Assembly (NCBI GenBank): GCA_021647205.1
Contig: JAKIVD010000001.1
Coordinates: forward strand, 62,001-126,000
Length of the DNA stretch: 64,000 nt
Source of the DNA: Bacteroidales bacterium
Lineage (GTDB): Bacteria > Bacteroidota > Bacteroidia > Bacteroidales > F082
Direction: 5' to 3'
Shown here: positions 1-41,466 of the stretch, in pieces
Layout: the number at the start of each line of letters is the position of its first letter
How positions within the stretch are numbered: position 1 is the stretch's first letter
Notes under the pieces: model-generated
Told to the model about the DNA's origin: nothing
The model's database searches: none
What the model saw: the letters and a program-made list of their open reading frames with translations, nothing else
Position numbers and translations under genes: made by a program

Positions 1-705
1 AAATTTGCCATTGCCTTCACCGTGGAAATGGACAGGGAAATGGTGGCGGCAGCCCCTTCGGCATCCATCGTCATGGAGTCGGGACGGCAATACCTTAATT
101 CGGGAGTCATTGCCCTGCAGGTGGCTGCTTTCATCCGGAACCTGGGCTACGAAGCCCGTGCCCACATCGACGGCAACTACCAGGTGGTTTGCCCGCTGGT
201 GGCCAGGGATGCGGGACTTGGAGAAATCGGCCGGATGGGACTGCTGATGACCCCCAAGCTGGGGCCACGGGTACGGATTTCGGTGGTGACCACCAATCTT
301 CCGTTGGTCATTAATAGGCCCTTGAATGATTATTCTGTGATTGACTTTTGTACGATTTGTAATAAATGTGCAGAAGCCTGCCCCGGCCAGGCCATTTCGT
401 TGGAACCTCAACAAGAAATCAATGGTGTAAAAAGGTGGCAGGTCAAGCAGGAAAAATGCTTCACGCTCTGGTGCAGTCTGGGTACCGATTGCGGACGGTG
501 CATCAGCGTTTGTCCCTATTCGCATCCCGACAATTTGCTGCACAACCTAGTCAGGGCGGGAAATAAAAATTCGTCCCTTTTCCGTAAAGTGGCGTTGAAA
601 CTGGATGATTATTTTTACGGACGGAAGCCGCCCCCGGCAAAAATGCCGGAATGGATGCTTACCAAATCAGTTCCCCGTACCTTCAGGTCCGGGACCAACA
701 CCTAA
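1..705 (+). CDS. 4Fe-4S double-cluster protein, reductive dehalogenase/QueG-like (5' end missing)
   Basis: The reading frame is open from base 1, so the N-terminus lies outside the window. The visible 234 residues carry two iron-sulfur motifs: CTICNKCAEACP, then a second, wider cysteine set ending CGRCISVCPYSHP. Upstream of these is the stretch ending GEIGRMGLLMTPKLGPRVR, typical of the region before the clusters in reductive-dehalogenase-like and epoxyqueuosine-reductase-like proteins. It therefore probably transfers electrons to a corrinoid- or flavin-type site in the missing part. No Tat signal or corrinoid motif can be judged because the start is absent. The family call is good; the substrate is unknown, and true organohalide respiration should not be assumed. 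Confidence 0.75.
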   Translation, partial: KFAIAFTVEMDREMVAAAPSASIVMESGRQYLNSGVIALQVAAFIRNLGYEARAHIDGNYQVVCPLVARDAGLGEIGRMGLLMTPKLGPRVRISVVTTNLPLVINRPLNDYSVIDFCTICNKCAEACPGQAISLEPQQEINGVKRWQVKQEKCFTLWCSLGTDCGRCISVCPYSHPDNLLHNLVRAGNKNSSLFRKVALKLDDYFYGRKPPPAKMPEWMLTKSVPRTFRSGTNT

Positions 706-2172: not shown

Positions 2173-2272
2173 AAAGAGCTGAGTGGTCAGGAACTTCAAC
2201 AGTAGTTGATGAGTCATCAAATATTTGACAAAAGGCCATTTTATAAGGTGGGAAAATAAAAAAAAGAATACC

Positions 2273-2740
2273 TCACTGTTTTTTGTACAGCTCGAACGTC
2301 AGGCTGTGGTCGGGCACAATCACATAAACGGAATCTACCCACTCCAGATGCCCCTTTTTGGCTACACCGGTTATTTTGAATTCGCTCCCCTTTTTGTACA
2401 GGTTCATGTTAATGGAGTTGGTTTGATTGGCAATACTGAAATAGTAAAGGCTGTCCGATTTCGTTGAAAAAAAAGACTGTGAATAATAATCGGGAGCCAA
2501 CACTTTAATAAGAAACTGGTTAGCTGAAGGGTTTTCAATTTCCAGTTGTACTTCCACACCATCAACAATTTCGTTGGTTTCATCTTTATAGTACGACCCG
2601 GTTCCATTGTACTTGCCGGCCCACGATTCAAGTCCGCAACCTTCACAAAAAGCCCATTCCTCAACCGTTTTTTTACATTGCTGACAGAACCCGGCCGTGA
2701 GAAAAACAGAAACAAAAATGATGAAAGTTTTTTTTTTCAT
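2273..2740 (-). CDS. Hypothetical exported protein with Cys-rich N-terminal segment
   Basis: A 155-residue protein. The start at 2740 (MKKKTFIIFVSVFLTAGF) gives a normal signal peptide; the longer frame reaching 2836 adds a non-hydrophobic leader and is rejected. After the signal come cysteines in QQCKK and FCEGCG, then a beta-rich domain (GKYNGTGSYYKDETNE, VQLEIENPSANQFLIKVL, FKITGVAKKGHLEWVDSVYVIVPDHSLTFELYKK) resembling small lipocalin-like or META-type exported proteins in general shape only. The CxxC could bind a metal or form a disulfide. I do not recognise the family. It is convergent with the lipoprotein gene to its left. Confidence 0.65.
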   Translation of the reverse strand: MKKKTFIIFVSVFLTAGFCQQCKKTVEEWAFCEGCGLESWAGKYNGTGSYYKDETNEIVDGVEVQLEIENPSANQFLIKVLAPDYYSQSFFSTKSDSLYYFSIANQTNSINMNLYKKGSEFKITGVAKKGHLEWVDSVYVIVPDHSLTFELYKKQ

Positions 2741-2849
2741 ACCACGGGGCAAAATTAAGAAAAGTCTTTGATGAACCCGGGCTAAATATAAGCCGGGGGT
2801 TTGTTCTGTTCTCCATTTATCTTGAAGCGGGGGCATTGTAAAAATCTAT

Positions 2850-2857
2850 TAATTTTG
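2850..2857 (+). promoter_or_regulatory. -7 box TAATTTTG upstream of the cytochrome c peroxidase gene
   Basis: The octamer matches the Bacteroidota -7 consensus TAnnTTTG and lies 39 bases before the ATG at 2896. No clear -33 TTG at the usual distance is seen. Confidence 0.5.
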
Positions 2858-2895
2858 CAGTTGTAAAGCAAATGTTAAACCTAATACCCAAACAA

Positions 2896-3960
2896 ATGAA
2901 AAAGTTCCTTATTGTTCTGATTGCCCCTGCTCTTGTCCTGTTTAGTTGTGCAGGAAACCAACAAAAAAATGATGAAAAACCGGCGGGGTCAAAAGTGATT
3001 CCACAAGCCGAAAAAGACCTGCTGACCAAGGCAGCAGCCTTGTTTAAAGTCTTGCCGACCGAAGCTGTCAATGCCGAAAACCCTGTAACCGATGCCAAAG
3101 TAAAACTGGGTAAAATACTGTATTACGACAACCGCCTGTCGAAAGACCAGACCCAAAGTTGCAATACCTGTCACAACCTGTCCACTTACGGAGTTGACAA
3201 CCTGCCCACTTCCCCCGGCGACAACGGCATCCCCGGTACGCGCAACTCACCAACCGTATTGAATGCAGCTTTTAAAACTGCCCAGTTCTGGGACGGGCGC
3301 AACAAAGATGTGGAAGAACAAGCCGGCGGTCCCATCCTCAATCCTGCTGAAATGGCCATTCCAAATGAACAGTTTTTAATTGACCGGCTCAAAAAAGTGG
3401 AAATGTACCAAAACTTGTTTGCCACTGCTTATCCCAGTGAGACAGACCCTTTTACCTACAAAAATATTCGCCATGCCATAGCCGCATTTGAACGGACACT
3501 CATTACGCCTTCGCGTTTTGACAATTACCTCGCCGGTAACTATGACGCGCTGAGCACCCGGGAAAAAACAGGACTGAAGGCCTTTATGGATGTTGGATGT
3601 ATTGCTTGTCACAGTGGCAGTTTACTGGGTGGAACCATGCTGCAAAAGTTTCCGCTTTTCGGTAAATACGAAGATTATATTCCCGGTGGAAATCCCGATT
3701 ACGGCAAGTTTGTGGAAACCAAAGTGGAAACCGACAAATTCATGTTTTTTGTCCCGCTGTTGCGTAATGTGGAAAAAACCGCCCCTTACCTCAGCGACGG
3801 CAGCATCGCCGATTTGGCCGCAACCATCCGCATCATGGGTAAAGCCGAATTGAACAAAGACCTGACCGACCAACAAGTAAACGACATGTTGGCCTTCTTC
3901 AAAACCCTGACGGGTGAAGTAGCTGATGATTGGCAAACGGTACCGGAAGAATTGAAGTAA
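2896..3960 (+). CDS. Di-haem cytochrome c peroxidase (CcpA/MauG family) lipoprotein
   Basis: A 354-residue exported protein with a lipoprotein signal (lipobox LFSC, Cys18). Two haem c sites are visible: CNTCH at residues 89-93 and CIACH at 235-239, the spacing expected of bacterial di-haem peroxidases. Other family marks are GTRNSPTVLNAAF and FWDGRNKDVEEQA between the haems. The enzyme reduces hydrogen peroxide with electrons from a periplasmic cytochrome or quinol-linked donor; MauG-like side roles are possible. Start 2896 is preferred over 2872 because the latter adds eight non-signal residues. Its 3' end is partly duplicated in the downstream spacer (see repeat 3919-4070). Confidence 0.92.
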   Translation: MKKFLIVLIAPALVLFSCAGNQQKNDEKPAGSKVIPQAEKDLLTKAAALFKVLPTEAVNAENPVTDAKVKLGKILYYDNRLSKDQTQSCNTCHNLSTYGVDNLPTSPGDNGIPGTRNSPTVLNAAFKTAQFWDGRNKDVEEQAGGPILNPAEMAIPNEQFLIDRLKKVEMYQNLFATAYPSETDPFTYKNIRHAIAAFERTLITPSRFDNYLAGNYDALSTREKTGLKAFMDVGCIACHSGSLLGGTMLQKFPLFGKYEDYIPGGNPDYGKFVETKVETDKFMFFVPLLRNVEKTAPYLSDGSIADLAATIRIMGKAELNKDLTDQQVNDMLAFFKTLTGEVADDWQTVPEELK

Positions 3961-28892: not shown

Positions 28893-31800
28893 TTACTCTG
28901 CGCTGTCTTCCGGTGTTTTTCCTTTGTTGTTTTTGTTTACCGGTCTTGTTGCATTTGCACCGGGAGGCACTTGTCCGACGGTACAATTTCCTGCCGCATC
29001 AATGCTGAATGTACCTCCTGTACCCGTACCGATGTTCAATGTTCCCCCAACGGTAGAATTAAATGCACCGTGGTTAAACGTACCGGCATTGCCGATGGTT
29101 ACATTACCGACAACATTAAAATAACTGTTGGTCACCGTGTTGGTGGTTTGCAGGGTGCCGTTGGTCAGGTCCAGGTTGTTTTTGATGTCCCATCCGTGGC
29201 TGGCATCGCTTCGCTGGAAGTAGTAAATTCCTCCGCCCGAAAGCACCACATTGTATCCAAGCGCGTTGTAAGCAGTATTGGAAGGCAGGAAATAGTGCGT
29301 GCCCGGGCCGGTCATGGTGATGGTTCCGCCCGTTACCGTCGGCCAGGCCACATCGTTGATGTAGAAACTACCCGCCACATTGAAACTGAAGGGCCCGTCC
29401 ATGATGCCGTTCAAATCCGAAAGTGAAAAATAAACGGTTCCTGCTGCATTGATCGTTCCTCCGGAAAGGTGGATATTTCCCTTGGCAAACTGGCTTGCCG
29501 GGCTCCTGCTCCAGTTTGTGAAGCTGAAAGTTCCGCCGGTAATATTCACATCGCTGCCAATTTCGGAATAGAAGTTCCCGCCCACGTTGCAGCTACCCGC
29601 GCTCATGTCAAAGCTTCCGGAGTTGCCCTGTCCGATTTGCAGATCGCCGTTAACGGTCATGGAACCTCCTGCCCCGCAGCTGAGCGCCCCGCCGTCGTAA
29701 ACACTGAGGTTGTTGCAAACGGTAGATTGATTGACAACAGGCAGGAAAGCCATGTTGGGCACTACTACGTCAACGGTTCCGGTGGGTACATTGTTGTCGT
29801 CCCAGTTTCCGGTCGTACTCCAGTCAACACTGCCCGCTTTGGCGGTCCACAAACCGGGGATGCCTGTGCAGGATGCATCTGCATACACCGTCAGGTCATC
29901 AATGTTCCAGCCGCTGTACTGCCACCCACCATCGGTTGCACCGATGGCAAAACGCACCTTGAAACCGGCATTGCCATCGGCCTCGGCCGAAACATCAATA
30001 TCAATCAATTGCCATGCATTGTCCGTAATGGTTGTGGCACCATTGCTGTACTTCTGCACCCAGGCGCTTCCGTCCCACACATCAATGTAGGCATGGTCGT
30101 AGGCCGACCATTCCACGTTGAGCCAGCGCTGAAACTTCAAACGCACATTGGTTTTGCCCGTGCAATTGATCACCGGAGATTCGGCCTGGTAGGCCCTGTC
30201 GGCAAGGTTGGTTTCATAATCTCCGGAGTAAGTGCCGAGCCCGGTAAGGTCGGTCCCCAGCACATTGGTGCCCGAAAAAGCAGCGGCAGGATCGGCGTTG
30301 CCGTAATTGCCACCCAGTCCCTGCGGGGCGGCACGTTGAAATTCACCTGTCAGTGTCCAGCCTTTGTCGGTTTCAAAATCATCGAAGAAAACGCTTGCTG
30401 TTGCAAGTATTCTTCGCTCACCCGCCGGATCCGTAACCGTCGGAACATGAGTCGTTCCGCCGATGGTTACGGAGTCGCAAACGGCATCAACATAATAGCA
30501 AGCGGTTGCCGTATCGGAAATATCGTAGGTAAGCCAGAAATAATTTGTTCCCGCGCTGAGCGTACCTGCGGTCTGTGTGGGATTGATGGAAAACGCGTCG
30601 TTTGGGGCAACGACCATACTACCTACCTGCTTATTCGTTGAGAACACATTGCTTGTTCCCGTGTAATAAAGTTTCGCATTCAGCACATCGTTGGGGTCAA
30701 CAGTTCCCTGGGTGTCAAAGAAGAATGCAGTGGCGGAAAGCGGTGAACCACTGTTGACGGTCACGATCTCAACCCTGATGATCTGGCTGTTGACATCTCC
30801 GGCTGACACATCCGTGGTGGGCCCCTGAACGGTTGTAAGCGAACTTAAGGTCATGGATGCCACATTGTTGATGGCGAAGTTGTCAATGGCCATGTCGCTG
30901 GCCCAGTTATCGGTCGTTCCGAAAAACCGCAAGCGTGTGTAACCGCATCCTTTGTAAGGTGCAAGGTCGATGTTTGCCTGGGTCCAGGCAGCAGCACCCG
31001 AACTGTGCTGTTGCGCGGTTTTCGCGAAAAGCGTTACCCATTTCCCATTGTAAAAAATTTCTGCCCGCAGGGTACCCATGTATTGGCCATACATGTGGTA
31101 ATAAAAGCTGAGTTCCGGGTTGGATATCGTATTCAGGTCAAAATACGGCGTGTAAAGTATCGCCTTTTTAGCGGGTGAATTGGGGCTGGAAGCTTCCGTG
31201 TACATATAATTTCCGCCGCCGGTAACATCGTCATCGGGGCCGGTATTGCCTGAGAGTGTTCCGCCGGCATCCAGCGTCCAGTCAAAATCATCAGCGGTTG
31301 ACTGTGTCCATCCTGCCGGTAATCCAGCATCGAAATTCGTCGAGTAGGGCAAGCCTGCCGTGGCAGGGCTGGCCGTGGTAAAACTCCAGGTTGAACAGCC
31401 CGTTTTTACACCCTGGTTGTTGCGGGGATAAACTTTCAGGTAATAAGTTGTTCCGGGGCTGAGGCATTCCTTCAGTACCCTTTCGCCCTGGTTCACACCA
31501 TTCAGGATGTTGGTGGCGGAAGGATCGGTACCAAAATACACATCGTAGGAAGAAGCATCCGTTACATCCGACCATTTGACCTCTTCAGCCAGCGGTACAT
31601 TGGTGGCGCCGTCAGTAGGTTTTTCAAGGCTTGCGCAGGTGGCGGGTGCGGATGAAAACTCGTTCAGACCCTGGATGACAATGGAAAAGTCCTGCGAAGC
31701 TGCCAGGGTACCGTCGTGGTCAACGGTGATGGTGTAAGTACCCGGTGTAGGATTCTCGATGAACACCGTTTCCACGTTGTCCACATCGTTTTCACCGGTA

Positions 31801-33314
31801 TTGGTGGGCGGGTCCGCCGGGTTGTTCCTGTCGAGTTTCCAGGCATAGTAAGTAGTCGTGCCGTCTGAAATTCTCAGGTCAAGATCGTTCACCAGCATGG
31901 GTGTGGGCGGGTTAAGTTGCGGTGTCGGGGGCGTTCCCGAGGGGTCGGTCCACACCACGGTAACCTTGAGGGGCTTGCGTCCCACGCTGATGTTGCGGGT
32001 GTAAGTCCCGCCGTTTGTCAAAGTTTTTTCGTCAATTACATTTGAGCCTGCGGCATCATCGCTGATGAGGGTGGCCGCCCTTTCGGCATTGAGCAGTCCC
32101 CAGCCGTACATATAATCGGGCCCGGTGTAAGGGCCGGTTTCATCGGCAGTGTTCAGCACCAGGGCTTTGATGGTAGCCGCTTTCATGGGGGTATTGCTGT
32201 GGGTGTTCTGGTAATGTTGCTGCAGCAACACCAGGGTACCGGTGGTATTCGGGGATGACATGGAGGTGCCGCTCATGGTTCCGTAAGTAGTGTTCGATCC
32301 TGAAAAGGAGGAATACAAATCATAACCGTTGGCAACAATGTCGGGTTTGATACGTCCGTCGTCGGCAGGGCCCCACGAGCTGAAGTAAACCATGCTCACA
32401 TCGCCGGGTTCTTTGTAATCGGGCACATCGTGGACAGCGCCTACGGTCAGCAGGTTTTTCGCGATGCCTCTTGTTCCGATGCAGTCGAAGCCGTCGTCGC
32501 CGCCATCGATTTCCGCGTTTGGCGGAGAGGTTCCCGGCCCGTCACCCCGGTCGTTTCCGGCGGATTTAATGATCAGGTAGTTGGGTGCGTTGTAGGCGAT
32601 GTCGTCCCAGTCTTTGGCAGCCTGGTCGTAAAAACCGAAACGGTAGTCCTCCAGGTCACTGATGTTGGTATCTCCGTACCAGATCCAGTTTGCACCATCC
32701 CAGTACCATCCCCGGATGTAACCGTAGGAGTGGTTGGACAACTCCAGTCCGCCTGAAGCTGCCGAGGACATTTCCGCATCGTCATTGGTCCACTCGTAAG
32801 TTGTCAGGTTTGCCTCGTAGGCCATTCCTTTGGCATTGGCGTCAACGCCGGCAGCGATGATGGTTCCGGCCACATGGGTGGAGTGATCGCTCAGGGACGA
32901 AGCGCCGTCTCCGAGTGTAATCCTGCCGCCAAATTCCTGATGCGTGTCCAGGACTTTTCCGCCGTCCCACTCGGCAACTTGTGTGTAGCCGTTCCCGGTA
33001 ACGTTCAGTCCGAGCCCGCCACCCGGGTACAAAGTATTGGCACGTGAAGTTTGTGCAGCGTTCACATTACCGGTAGTAAAATACTGGGGTAAGCCGTTTT
33101 CGATTTTCTGAATCTCGAAGATCGTCCCGTCGGGTAATACCTGCCTGACCGGCAAGTTATGCTTTCGGGCAAACTCAATCGCTTCGGCTTTGTTTTTCTG
33201 GTTTTCTTTGGTTTTCGCTTTGGCAAATTCATTCAGCCAATTCGGGTTAAGCTGTTGCGAAAATACTACTGATGAGAACAAAATTCCCACAAGTAAGCAT
33301 AAAACTTTTTTCAT
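28893..33314 (-). CDS. Large exported S8 (subtilisin-like) serine protease with MAM-like and Trp-rich modules
   Basis: A 1473-residue protein with signal peptide ending FSSVVFSQ. The subtilase triad is visible: Asp in VAEWDGGKVLDTHQ, His in DHSTHVAGTI and Ser in GTMSGTSMSSPNTTG. It is followed by a P-domain-like stretch (LTNGGTYTRNISVGRKPLKVTVVW), an FN3-like segment, a MAM-like module (NPELSFYYHMYGQYMGTL), a second jelly-roll segment, a Trp-rich module (VDWSTTGNWDDNNVP) and a C-terminal run of short beta-helix-like repeats ending in KNNKGKTPEDSAE. No T9SS type A domain is seen. It is predicted to be an extracellular peptidase working at or beyond the outer membrane. Codon use matches its neighbours. 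Confidence 0.9.
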   Translation of the reverse strand: MKKVLCLLVGILFSSVVFSQQLNPNWLNEFAKAKTKENQKNKAEAIEFARKHNLPVRQVLPDGTIFEIQKIENGLPQYFTTGNVNAAQTSRANTLYPGGGLGLNVTGNGYTQVAEWDGGKVLDTHQEFGGRITLGDGASSLSDHSTHVAGTIIAAGVDANAKGMAYEANLTTYEWTNDDAEMSSAASGGLELSNHSYGYIRGWYWDGANWIWYGDTNISDLEDYRFGFYDQAAKDWDDIAYNAPNYLIIKSAGNDRGDGPGTSPPNAEIDGGDDGFDCIGTRGIAKNLLTVGAVHDVPDYKEPGDVSMVYFSSWGPADDGRIKPDIVANGYDLYSSFSGSNTTYGTMSGTSMSSPNTTGTLVLLQQHYQNTHSNTPMKAATIKALVLNTADETGPYTGPDYMYGWGLLNAERAATLISDDAAGSNVIDEKTLTNGGTYTRNISVGRKPLKVTVVWTDPSGTPPTPQLNPPTPMLVNDLDLRISDGTTTYYAWKLDRNNPADPPTNTGENDVDNVETVFIENPTPGTYTITVDHDGTLAASQDFSIVIQGLNEFSSAPATCASLEKPTDGATNVPLAEEVKWSDVTDASSYDVYFGTDPSATNILNGVNQGERVLKECLSPGTTYYLKVYPRNNQGVKTGCSTWSFTTASPATAGLPYSTNFDAGLPAGWTQSTADDFDWTLDAGGTLSGNTGPDDDVTGGGNYMYTEASSPNSPAKKAILYTPYFDLNTISNPELSFYYHMYGQYMGTLRAEIFYNGKWVTLFAKTAQQHSSGAAAWTQANIDLAPYKGCGYTRLRFFGTTDNWASDMAIDNFAINNVASMTLSSLTTVQGPTTDVSAGDVNSQIIRVEIVTVNSGSPLSATAFFFDTQGTVDPNDVLNAKLYYTGTSNVFSTNKQVGSMVVAPNDAFSINPTQTAGTLSAGTNYFWLTYDISDTATACYYVDAVCDSVTIGGTTHVPTVTDPAGERRILATASVFFDDFETDKGWTLTGEFQRAAPQGLGGNYGNADPAAAFSGTNVLGTDLTGLGTYSGDYETNLADRAYQAESPVINCTGKTNVRLKFQRWLNVEWSAYDHAYIDVWDGSAWVQKYSNGATTITDNAWQLIDIDVSAEADGNAGFKVRFAIGATDGGWQYSGWNIDDLTVYADASCTGIPGLWTAKAGSVDWSTTGNWDDNNVPTGTVDVVVPNMAFLPVVNQSTVCNNLSVYDGGALSCGAGGSMTVNGDLQIGQGNSGSFDMSAGSCNVGGNFYSEIGSDVNITGGTFSFTNWSRSPASQFAKGNIHLSGGTINAAGTVYFSLSDLNGIMDGPFSFNVAGSFYINDVAWPTVTGGTITMTGPGTHYFLPSNTAYNALGYNVVLSGGGIYYFQRSDASHGWDIKNNLDLTNGTLQTTNTVTNSYFNVVGNVTIGNAGTFNHGAFNSTVGGTLNIGTGTGGTFSIDAAGNCTVGQVPPGANATRPVNKNNKGKTPEDSAE

Positions 33315-39607: not shown

Positions 39608-40273
39608 ATGGGGAAAAATCAAACAGTTAAAGAATTTGCCCGGCAGTTCGACGGGCTTGAATTACTGAAACGGAGCAACGAAGGTATTTTGCTTGGCGAC
39701 TTGTACAAGAAGAAAGCCACCGGAAAAACACGCCTGGAGTTTTCCGGTTATAATATTGCGTTTAAAATCGGGCTTCCCGGTGCCGGGGCCAAAGCCCTGA
39801 AAAAAAGCTTGCAGGAGGTGAAAGTCCTTGACGGTGCCTTTGCCGACCTGGCCATAAAGGACAGTTTTTCTGCCGATGCTGCCCTGTCAATACCCTCGGT
39901 GAATGTGCAACTTGATGGCAAGGTCGAACGCTCCAAAGTACTGGGCTTTGAAATCGGAAAGATAAAAACAAAGGTTTTGAGGGATGCACTGCGCCTGAAG
40001 ATTGAAACGGCCATCGGGCAGTTAAAAGCTGAAAACCCGAAAAAGTACCGCAAAAAACTGAAGCACCTTTACCTTGTTGAGCAATTGTTTTACAGTGAAA
40101 GCGTGCAAATTACCATCGCAAAGGATACCGAAGTGGATGTGAATGCCATCATAGCTGAATCGGTGGGAAAAGTGTCGGTGGGAGTTGACATCAACAAGAA
40201 CCAGGTTTTTACCATTACCGGCTCCGGTTTCCCTTTTGCGGTGGACCTGAAAAAGGTGAAGGACTTTATCTGA
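39608..40273 (+). CDS. Hypothetical 221-residue cytoplasmic protein, possible gasdermin-like pattern
   Basis: No signal peptide, membrane segment or cysteine. Alternating strands and amphipathic stretches dominate: an N-terminal helix with FARQFDGLELLKRS, a central strand pair (SADAALSIPSVNVQLDG), a helix-rich part (LRDALRLKIETAIGQLKAE), then LYLVEQLFYSESVQITIAKD, VDVNAIIAESVGKVSVGVD and the final FTITGSGFPFAVDLKKVKDF. The order and flavour of the last three segments recall the end of bacterial gasdermin pore-forming domains, but this is a visual resemblance only. The protein stops where the autoinhibitory tail would begin, and no protease gene is adjacent. It lies 74 bases after the FG-GAP gene and 154 bases before an IS982 element. 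Other possibilities are an unknown lipid-binding or structural protein. Confidence 0.6.
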   Translation: MGKNQTVKEFARQFDGLELLKRSNEGILLGDLYKKKATGKTRLEFSGYNIAFKIGLPGAGAKALKKSLQEVKVLDGAFADLAIKDSFSADAALSIPSVNVQLDGKVERSKVLGFEIGKIKTKVLRDALRLKIETAIGQLKAENPKKYRKKLKHLYLVEQLFYSESVQITIAKDTEVDVNAIIAESVGKVSVGVDINKNQVFTITGSGFPFAVDLKKVKDFI

Positions 40274-40427: not shown

Positions 40428-41466
40428 ACCTGAGCTCGATGTAAGAAAGATGTAATTTTCGTAAAACATAAGGAAAGTTTTTGTATATTTAAAGTGTTAA
40501 CATTCAAATTAATACAAAAACACTTCCTTATGAACAAGAACGCAAATTTAGTTGAAATTTACTACTTGGCAGACGACTTCTGCAAAGAATTTTACAAAGT
40601 AATGGAGGGGAATACCCTTGAACAAAACAACGATATAAAGCGAAGAAACAGAAAATTCAAACTCAGTGATGCCGAAGTTATGACGATTATGATAGCCTTT
40701 CACCTTGGAGCTTATCGCAATCTTAAATTCTTTTATATCAATTATGTACAAAAGCATCTGACAGAGGATTTCCCGGAAACAGTATCTTATAACCGCTTTG
40801 TCGAACTACAACAAAAGGCACTGCTTCCAATGACTATATTTTTGAAAACAATTCAACTTGGGAACAGTACGGGAATATCATTTGTAGATTCTACCCCAAT
40901 AAGGGTTTGTAAGAACAAGAGAATATTTAACCACAAGGTATTTAAAGGAATAGCAGAACGGGGGAAATCAACCATGGGCTACTTCTTTGGTTTTAAACTG
41001 CACATTATTGTCAATGATCGTGGTGAGATTATCAACTTTGTAATAACACCTGGAAACGTTGACGATAGGCAACCGCTAAAAGACGCCAACTTCCTAAAGA
41101 AAGTGGCCGGAAAATTATTCGCCGACAAAGGTTATGTTTCACAAAAACTATTTGAAACGTTATTTATTGATGGTATTCAGCTAGTTGCCGGTATTCGAAA
41201 TAACATGAAAAACCAATTAATGAGTATGTTTGACAAAATAATGCTCAGGAAAAGATCGATAATTGAAACAATAAATGATGAACTCAAGAACATTTGTCAA
41301 ATAGAGCATTCCAGACATAGGAGCTTCACAAACTTCTTGTCAAACCTTATTTCGGGACTATTGGCATATTCATTCTTACCTAAAAAACCAAGCATTAAAT
41401 ACGAAACTGTAGAAACTCATGGGCAACTTGTTCTCTTTTAGATAATTGCTTATGTCGAACTCAGGT
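40428..41466 (+). mobile_element. IS982-family insertion sequence
   Basis: An 18-base terminal inverted repeat is visible: ACCTGAGCTCGATGTAAG at 40428-40445 and, inverted, at 41449-41466, matching at 15 of 18 positions. The element is 1039 bases and holds one intact transposase gene. No target duplication is obvious in the flanks (CTAAAAA on the left, TAGTACTAA on the right), so it may have lost it or the ends may lie a few bases further out. Confidence 0.85.
40530..41441 (+). CDS. IS982-family DDE transposase
   Basis: A 303-residue transposase. The DDE residues are placed in SFVDSTPIRV (first Asp), LFADKGYVS (second Asp) and RSIIETINDELKN (Glu); HKVFKGIAERGKSTMGYFFGFKLH is the strongly conserved central block of the IS982 family. 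The ATG at 40530 is preferred to the GTG at 40494, which lies closer to the left inverted repeat. The frame is complete, so the copy may be active. It is more A/T-rich than its neighbours, as expected for an acquired element. Confidence 0.93.
   Translation: MNKNANLVEIYYLADDFCKEFYKVMEGNTLEQNNDIKRRNRKFKLSDAEVMTIMIAFHLGAYRNLKFFYINYVQKHLTEDFPETVSYNRFVELQQKALLPMTIFLKTIQLGNSTGISFVDSTPIRVCKNKRIFNHKVFKGIAERGKSTMGYFFGFKLHIIVNDRGEIINFVITPGNVDDRQPLKDANFLKKVAGKLFADKGYVSQKLFETLFIDGIQLVAGIRNNMKNQLMSMFDKIMLRKRSIIETINDELKNICQIEHSRHRSFTNFLSNLISGLLAYSFLPKKPSIKYETVETHGQLVLF

Follow-up and report, generated by a model that had tools for sequence, protein, structure and literature searches.

A tail-less gasdermin-like protein of Bacteroidales predicted to consist of the pore-forming domain alone

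The gene at 39608..40273 (+ strand) of the window (the whole stretch of 64,000 nucleotides that was analysed) encodes a protein of 221 amino acids that is assigned by its predicted fold to the gasdermin superfamily, and that is not a canonical bacterial gasdermin. Gasdermins are pore-forming proteins of inflammatory cell death, and the canonical traits of the bacterial members (bGSDM) are a short inhibitory peptide at the C-terminus, a palmitoylated N-terminal Cys, an adjoining protease gene and protection against phage by cell death. The canonical type was set aside for the window protein because the C-terminal inhibitory tail, the N-terminal Cys and a partner protease were each tested for and found to be absent. 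The gene is proposed, with confidence that is evenly balanced, to encode a bacterial gasdermin with nothing but a pore-forming domain, which represents a branch of its own in Bacteroidota and is controlled by other means than tail cleavage. According to the available text of PMC11249213, bacterial gasdermins are rare (0.5% of prokaryotic genomes) and are activated by cleavage of a short tail; in the available portions of the literature on bacterial and cleavage-independent gasdermins, no description of a tail-less bacterial branch was found.

Gene, predicted fold and sequence signal

The open reading frame runs from ATG to TGA and contains all three segments that were quoted from it in the original prediction. 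It is a real, conserved gene, since full-length relatives exist and substitutions relative to the relative L001 are in excess at the third codon position (38, 38 and 105 substitutions at positions 1, 2 and 3, respectively; dN 0.18, dS 1.7, NG86). In a simple scan of the surroundings, one promoter-like site (1.4 expected) and no terminator (1.6 expected) were found, and no clear promoter was apparent. The protein is basic (pI 9.6), whereas most of its relatives are acidic, so a basic lipid-binding surface common to the family is not evident.

A structural model of the window protein was built with AlphaFold2 from 16 family rows only, with no templates (pLDDT 75.4, pTM 0.74). A second model was prepared for L004, a relative of 242 amino acids from the genus g8 that is 25–28% identical to the window protein by alignment (pLDDT 89.6, pTM 0.87). 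Foldseek placed bacterial gasdermins at ranks 1–8 with either model (window model: E 2.6e-7 to 1.2e-2, next match 0.22). With VIA-align, rows 1–16 for the window model were occupied by gasdermins of bacteria and mammals (Z 11.6 to 5.2, with 4.5 for the best match of another kind), the top row being 7n51 (Z 11.6, 200 residues aligned, rmsd 4.3), and rows 1–19 for the L004 model were again gasdermins (Z 9.6 to 4.7). Behind the gasdermins, the L004 model matched cholesterol-dependent cytolysins and pore formers related to these, from Z 4.4 downwards; the MACPF/cholesterol-dependent cytolysins and the gasdermins are structurally akin superfamilies. In the predicted structures, the fold of the gasdermin pore-forming domain (a twisted central antiparallel sheet with peripheral helices) is clearly present. 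The protein had originally been called gasdermin-like by eye, and both models picked gasdermins; the structure prediction and Foldseek comparison proposed at that time as a check put gasdermins on top and returned no confident unrelated fold.

The likeness to the gasdermins of Runella (7n52), Vitiosangium (7n51) and Bradyrhizobium (7n50) extends over the predicted pore domain along the whole chain (Z 10.6–11.6) and is accompanied by weak profile similarity at 10–17% identity. The Trichoplax gasdermin (8jyv, 8jyw), which is activated by disulfide release, shares the gasdermin fold with the L004 model (Z 7.2 and 6.7), and RCD-1 (8jyx_B) matched that model weakly (Z 3.6) and was not listed for the window model. 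When the putative membrane hairpins were analysed for amphipathicity, no segment rose above the 95% level of shuffled sequences, in four family members and in two tailed controls alike.

The first helix predicted for the window protein (residues 7–13, 39626..39646, + strand) lies at the place of gasdermin alpha1, an equivalence derived from the structural alignment range 3..221, and no Cys precedes it. The family motif L[FY]Y... (residues 160–166, 40085..40105, + strand) opens a long strand; L160 and Y162 are invariant in 16/16 rows of the smaller alignment (A2) and, numbered as L177 and Y179, in 24/24 rows of the larger one (A5), both alignments consisting of chosen rows and not of all copies found. 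The last strand and the C-terminal end are formed by PFA-x(8)-F (residues 209–220, 40232..40267, + strand), in which P209 and F210 are invariant in 16/16 rows.

The sequence comparisons suggest gasdermin kinship by a signal that is weak but points in one direction. The PADLOC bGSDM model matched the window protein with E 3e-4 and the relative L007, as the best member, with 7.7e-6; eight of the 16 family members matched at E up to 1, and the tailed controls at 2e-22 to 2e-57. The NCBIfam model NF051890 (prok_gasdermin) matched the window protein with E 0.01 and 15.6 bits, its cut-off of 100 bits not being reached, and gave matches with E of at most 1 for seven of the 16 members, the best being 0.01; when it was run on the source genome, no match at E up to 1 was obtained. 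Alignment of the family with four tailed gasdermins by hhalign covered nearly the full length (columns 13–222, E 3.4e-4, probability 38). The likeness that had been noticed by eye is thus weakly borne out by these three profile comparisons. Pfam gave no gasdermin match for the window protein or for any of the 16 aligned members, and phmmer against PDB sequences gave one chance match only. When the family profile was searched against PDB sequences, gasdermin 7n50 was ranked fourth (E 1.2), below ABC-transporter chains (E 0.0061 and 0.036) and a designed protein (0.4). The latter matches were attributed to chance, since they are confined to the middle part of the profile and are absent from the fold search.

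Missing tail, cysteine and protease

The original prediction held that the protein stops where the inhibitory tail would start, and the structural alignment agrees: residue 221 of the window model is aligned with position 230 in the chain of Vitiosangium, which has 263 residues, with position 238 in that of Runella and with position 228 in that of Bradyrhizobium. The stop codon of the window gene comes one residue after PFA-x(8)-F, at a point where tailed gasdermins continue; L043 and L044, two tailed gasdermins of Bacteroidota, differ from the family in running 16 alignment columns beyond its C-terminal end. Counted by eye, the chain continues for 9–12 residues beyond the PFA-type motif in the final strand in 24/24 family rows, and the corresponding numbers for the tailed controls are 26 in L043, L044 and L047 and 17–19 in L046. 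The 24 aligned family proteins are 220–243 amino acids long, none of them has a tail, and they can be aligned end to end. In a tree, the four tailed rows fell on one side of a branch with support of 90/90, the long branches leaving this grouping unsure.

The predicted absence of an N-terminal Cys was found to be complete, the number of cysteines in the window protein being zero; among the 24 family members, the earliest Cys occurs at residue 28. A neighbouring protease, likewise predicted to be missing, was found by domain scan in none of the genes that adjoin the window gene. The nearest is a Peptidase_S8 protein at 28893-33314 (− strand), 6.3 kb from the gene, which is large (1473 amino acids), multidomain and, by eye, starts with a stretch that resembles a signal peptide. 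This subtilase was rejected as an activator, because a protein with an export-type start is probably located outside the cytosol.

The window gene is preceded on the same strand, at a distance of 74 bases, by the gene for a 1032-residue protein that has FG-GAP repeats and a type IX secretion tail. Downstream lies an insertion-sequence transposase (Pfam DDE_Tnp_1_3, 40494-41441, + strand), followed by a 510-residue protein with a type IX tail, a TauE-type permease and a long ORF the likeness of which to Mfd was judged by eye, PADLOC giving helicase-type matches. The transposase is present as a single copy in the source genome, and no convincing terminal inverted repeats were found around it. 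A convincing defence-system match was obtained with PADLOC for none of eight window neighbours, the matches being to general domains only (e.g., subtilase, amylase, helicase).

The tailed proteins L043, L044 and L047 (233 amino acids) come from the same phylum, in another family of the class, and score above the NCBIfam cut-off. They have no N-terminal Cys, and no protease was evident by eye in their flanks of 1.4–1.5 kb; the absence of Cys and protease is therefore not peculiar to the tail-less branch, and the missing tail is. These three proteins possibly represent another non-canonical group. L046 combines a short tail with a Cys at position 5 and stands beside a caspase/CHAT-like protein (recognised by eye; no Pfam domain was found in it), and its short tail makes the difference from tail-less proteins smaller than the crystal structures suggest. 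Upstream of L046 and on its strand, a protein was also observed (2182-3570, − strand) that matches a GDSL-like hydrolase (Pfam 1.5e-6, below the cut-off).

Distribution, genomic setting and selection

The tail-less family is rare and patchy overall. A search of the phylum with the single window protein found it in 3/395 genomes (the source genome and two of one genus). A profile built from 24 rows detected it in 3/335 genomes of the phylum (source genome included), and one built from four rows in 8/247 genomes of the order (the source genome and seven others); in the family of the second genus, 95/296 genomes and 3/33 genera had matches. In one genus, g8, which is of the same class and, judged from its size and the make-up of its family, may be Chryseobacterium, 77/118 genomes had a match, comprising 74 one-piece copies, two copies split in two and a single remnant of 28 residues. 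One match per genome was counted in the source genome and in each of the 74 one-piece g8 genomes. Decay of the gene in g8 is seen but is rare; the two-piece copies are located at L064 7554-8277 (G849) and at G1119:C1:3571467-3572188, and the remnant in G1122. Two close relatives of the window protein are from metagenome bins (L001, the closest, with 70% identity; L002, 66%), and L006 is a full-length relative with 51% identity. The L002 copy (390-1054) is frameshifted, which may be due to misassembly or to decay of the gene, and was omitted from all alignments. No match was obtained among plasmids by tblastn with the window protein, L044 or L009, and 53 candidate stretches of viral contigs, compared with the window protein, contained no relative.

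The g8 members carry about 20 extra N-terminal residues with a helix predicted at residues 2–15 in the L004 model. This extension falls outside the gasdermin alignment of L004 (24..242) and is absent from the window protein and from nearly all Bacteroidales relatives. Over 29 sequences, with region names assigned by the analyst, the mean entropy was 0.25 overall, 0.19 in the hairpin-1 segments and 0.09 in the strand before hairpin 2; finger 2 (0.32) and the N-terminal extension (0.38) were more variable. The least variable regions were the equivalents of alpha1/beta1-beta2 and the strand before finger 2.

In g8, hemB is located beside the family gene at 29/30 loci, which were selected as the best matches, are biased to conserved copies and include at least one short hemB ORF (L017, 162 amino acids). 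The same adjacency was found in 9/9 longer neighbourhoods of g8 and its sister g44, hemB being recognised there as Pfam ALAD. Protein identities of the family gene and of hemB covary (Mantel r 0.78, 0/2000 permutations as high), and the median dN/dS was approximately 0.033 for the family gene and 0.016 for hemB (125/406 pairs with dS <1.5 for both genes, from the 29/30 loci with both genes). The family gene in g8 is a vertically inherited chromosomal gene under strong purifying selection. In this respect the tail-less family, inherited on the chromosome within one genus and linked to hemB, differs from canonical bacterial gasdermins and their protease-linked defence modules. Inspection of related genomes, suggested together with the original prediction, yielded hemB as the neighbour in g8 and no partner protease, the domain scan covering part of the relatives' neighbours.

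Outside g8 and its sister, no common gene cluster was read in the neighbourhoods, save in three related genomes of one family (L053–L055); the other relatives have aspS-like, tyrS-like, respiratory and other genes as neighbours (by eye). This comparison covered 16/18 fetched neighbourhoods, the window and L001; the script found no family gene in L053 (probably owing to a longer overlapping ORF), L067 (a tailed control) and L002 (frameshift). Several single neighbours were recorded in addition. A ParE-type toxin gene (L001 723-1016; Pfam ParE_toxin 6e-9) lies approximately 150 bases upstream of the L001 copy and is absent from the window. In two Bacteroidales relatives, the gene is followed on the same strand by a small protein with a start that by eye resembles a membrane helix (L056 2452-3024, L051 8406-9119) and in which no Pfam domain was found. 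A protein of the TM2 cluster precedes the gene in 4/9 neighbourhoods of g8 and g44, and the one that was tested is Pfam TM2. Membrane partners for the family protein could be considered.

The dN/dS of about 0.03 and the fixed hemB neighbourhood are no less compatible with housekeeping than with killing. In the main rival explanation the gasdermin fold would have been tamed, the tail having been lost because lytic pores are no longer made, and lipid or membrane binding perhaps having been retained for a non-lethal housekeeping function. The one-piece, single-copy match in 74/118 g8 genomes, the covariation with hemB and the absence of any convincing defence gene near the window gene are in keeping with it. 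A tail would moreover be lost more easily once toxicity was gone, since tail-deleted gasdermin is toxic according to the available text of PMC10989679. The conservation pattern is divided, in that the putative hairpin-1 segments vary little, as does the strand before hairpin 2, which counts against a tamed fold, but finger 2 is not conserved; in addition, the 41/118 g8 genomes without a match and the three with split or remnant copies indicate that the gene is dispensable there, which fits housekeeping poorly. Considered together, this explanation has a substantial chance of being correct, and is still doubtful.

Mechanism, remaining alternatives and significance

According to the preferred reading, in which the isolated pore-forming domain has kept its activity, the protein would be a soluble cytosolic monomer with a resting fold that is stable without a tail. 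The trigger would not be the cutting of a tail but might be a ligand, altered lipids, a partner protein or increased expression, and it would cause the protein to bind to the inner membrane from the inside, to assemble into a ring and to permeabilise the membrane. The role would be regulated lysis or leakage as part of the cell's own programme, and not that of a classical abortive-infection cassette; this is to be expected because the gene in g8 behaves as a core physiological gene and not as a mobile defence module. In the available part of a review (PMC10989679), removal of the tail from three bacterial gasdermins is reported to have arrested growth, from which it follows that a naturally tail-less protein would either be held off in another way or be non-lytic.

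Activation without cleavage is described, in the available part of a further review (PMC13305819), for atypical ancient gasdermins, in which it proceeds by disulfide release or by heterodimerisation. Control by a disulfide is ruled out for the window protein, since it has no cysteine. Fungal RCD-1 is described in the accessible excerpts of PMC11760362 and PMC12881547 as a functional gasdermin without an inhibitory domain that is triggered on meeting a partner variant; RCD-1-1 and RCD-1-2 of Neurospora crassa resemble the present family in having a gasdermin domain and no inhibitory domain at the C-terminus (PMC11760362). According to the excerpt of PMC12881547, both variants must be present in the same cell for RCD-1 to act, whereas the tail-less family has one copy per genome by within-genome counts, so pairing of two variants is unlikely here.

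An ordinary bacterial gasdermin would be obtained if the protease were encoded elsewhere in the genome and the inhibitory element were part of the domain itself or, in g8, of the helical extension at the N-terminus. The extension, lying outside the gasdermin alignment, could be such an element, and the tailed L043, L044 and L047 are likewise devoid of an evident flanking protease and of an N-terminal Cys. The extension is however missing from the window protein and, with few exceptions, from the Bacteroidales relatives, it is among the more variable parts, and outside g8 and its sister no gene cluster other than the gene itself is common to the neighbourhoods; this explanation is regarded as improbable. 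That the protein is no gasdermin, but a mixed alpha/beta protein with a chance likeness, is very improbable, since the models of two proteins with 25–28% sequence identity both picked only gasdermins, matched in order along the entire domain, nothing else exceeding Z 4.5, in spite of the curated models staying under their cut-offs (NCBIfam, 15.6 of 100 bits) and of the ABC-transporter chains ranking above 7n50 in the PDB profile search.

For the preferred reading, that of a gasdermin controlled without tail cleavage, a wider formulation can be offered tentatively, and as one that is rather unlikely to hold in full: Bacteroidota would possess a second kind of gasdermin that is tail-less, vertically inherited and free of a protease cassette, and that permeabilises the cell's own membrane without proteolysis as part of a physiological programme. 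Clustering of structures has yielded two unannotated gasdermin-like clusters, as stated in the available text of PMC10584675, and these could contain the tail-less branch. Gasdermin counts may be too low, because the curated model misses this whole branch. If the proposal is true, a gasdermin fold without a restraining tail need not harm the living bacterium that carries it, which raises the questions of how a gasdermin is held off without an inhibitory domain and which roles bacterial gasdermins may have beyond defence.
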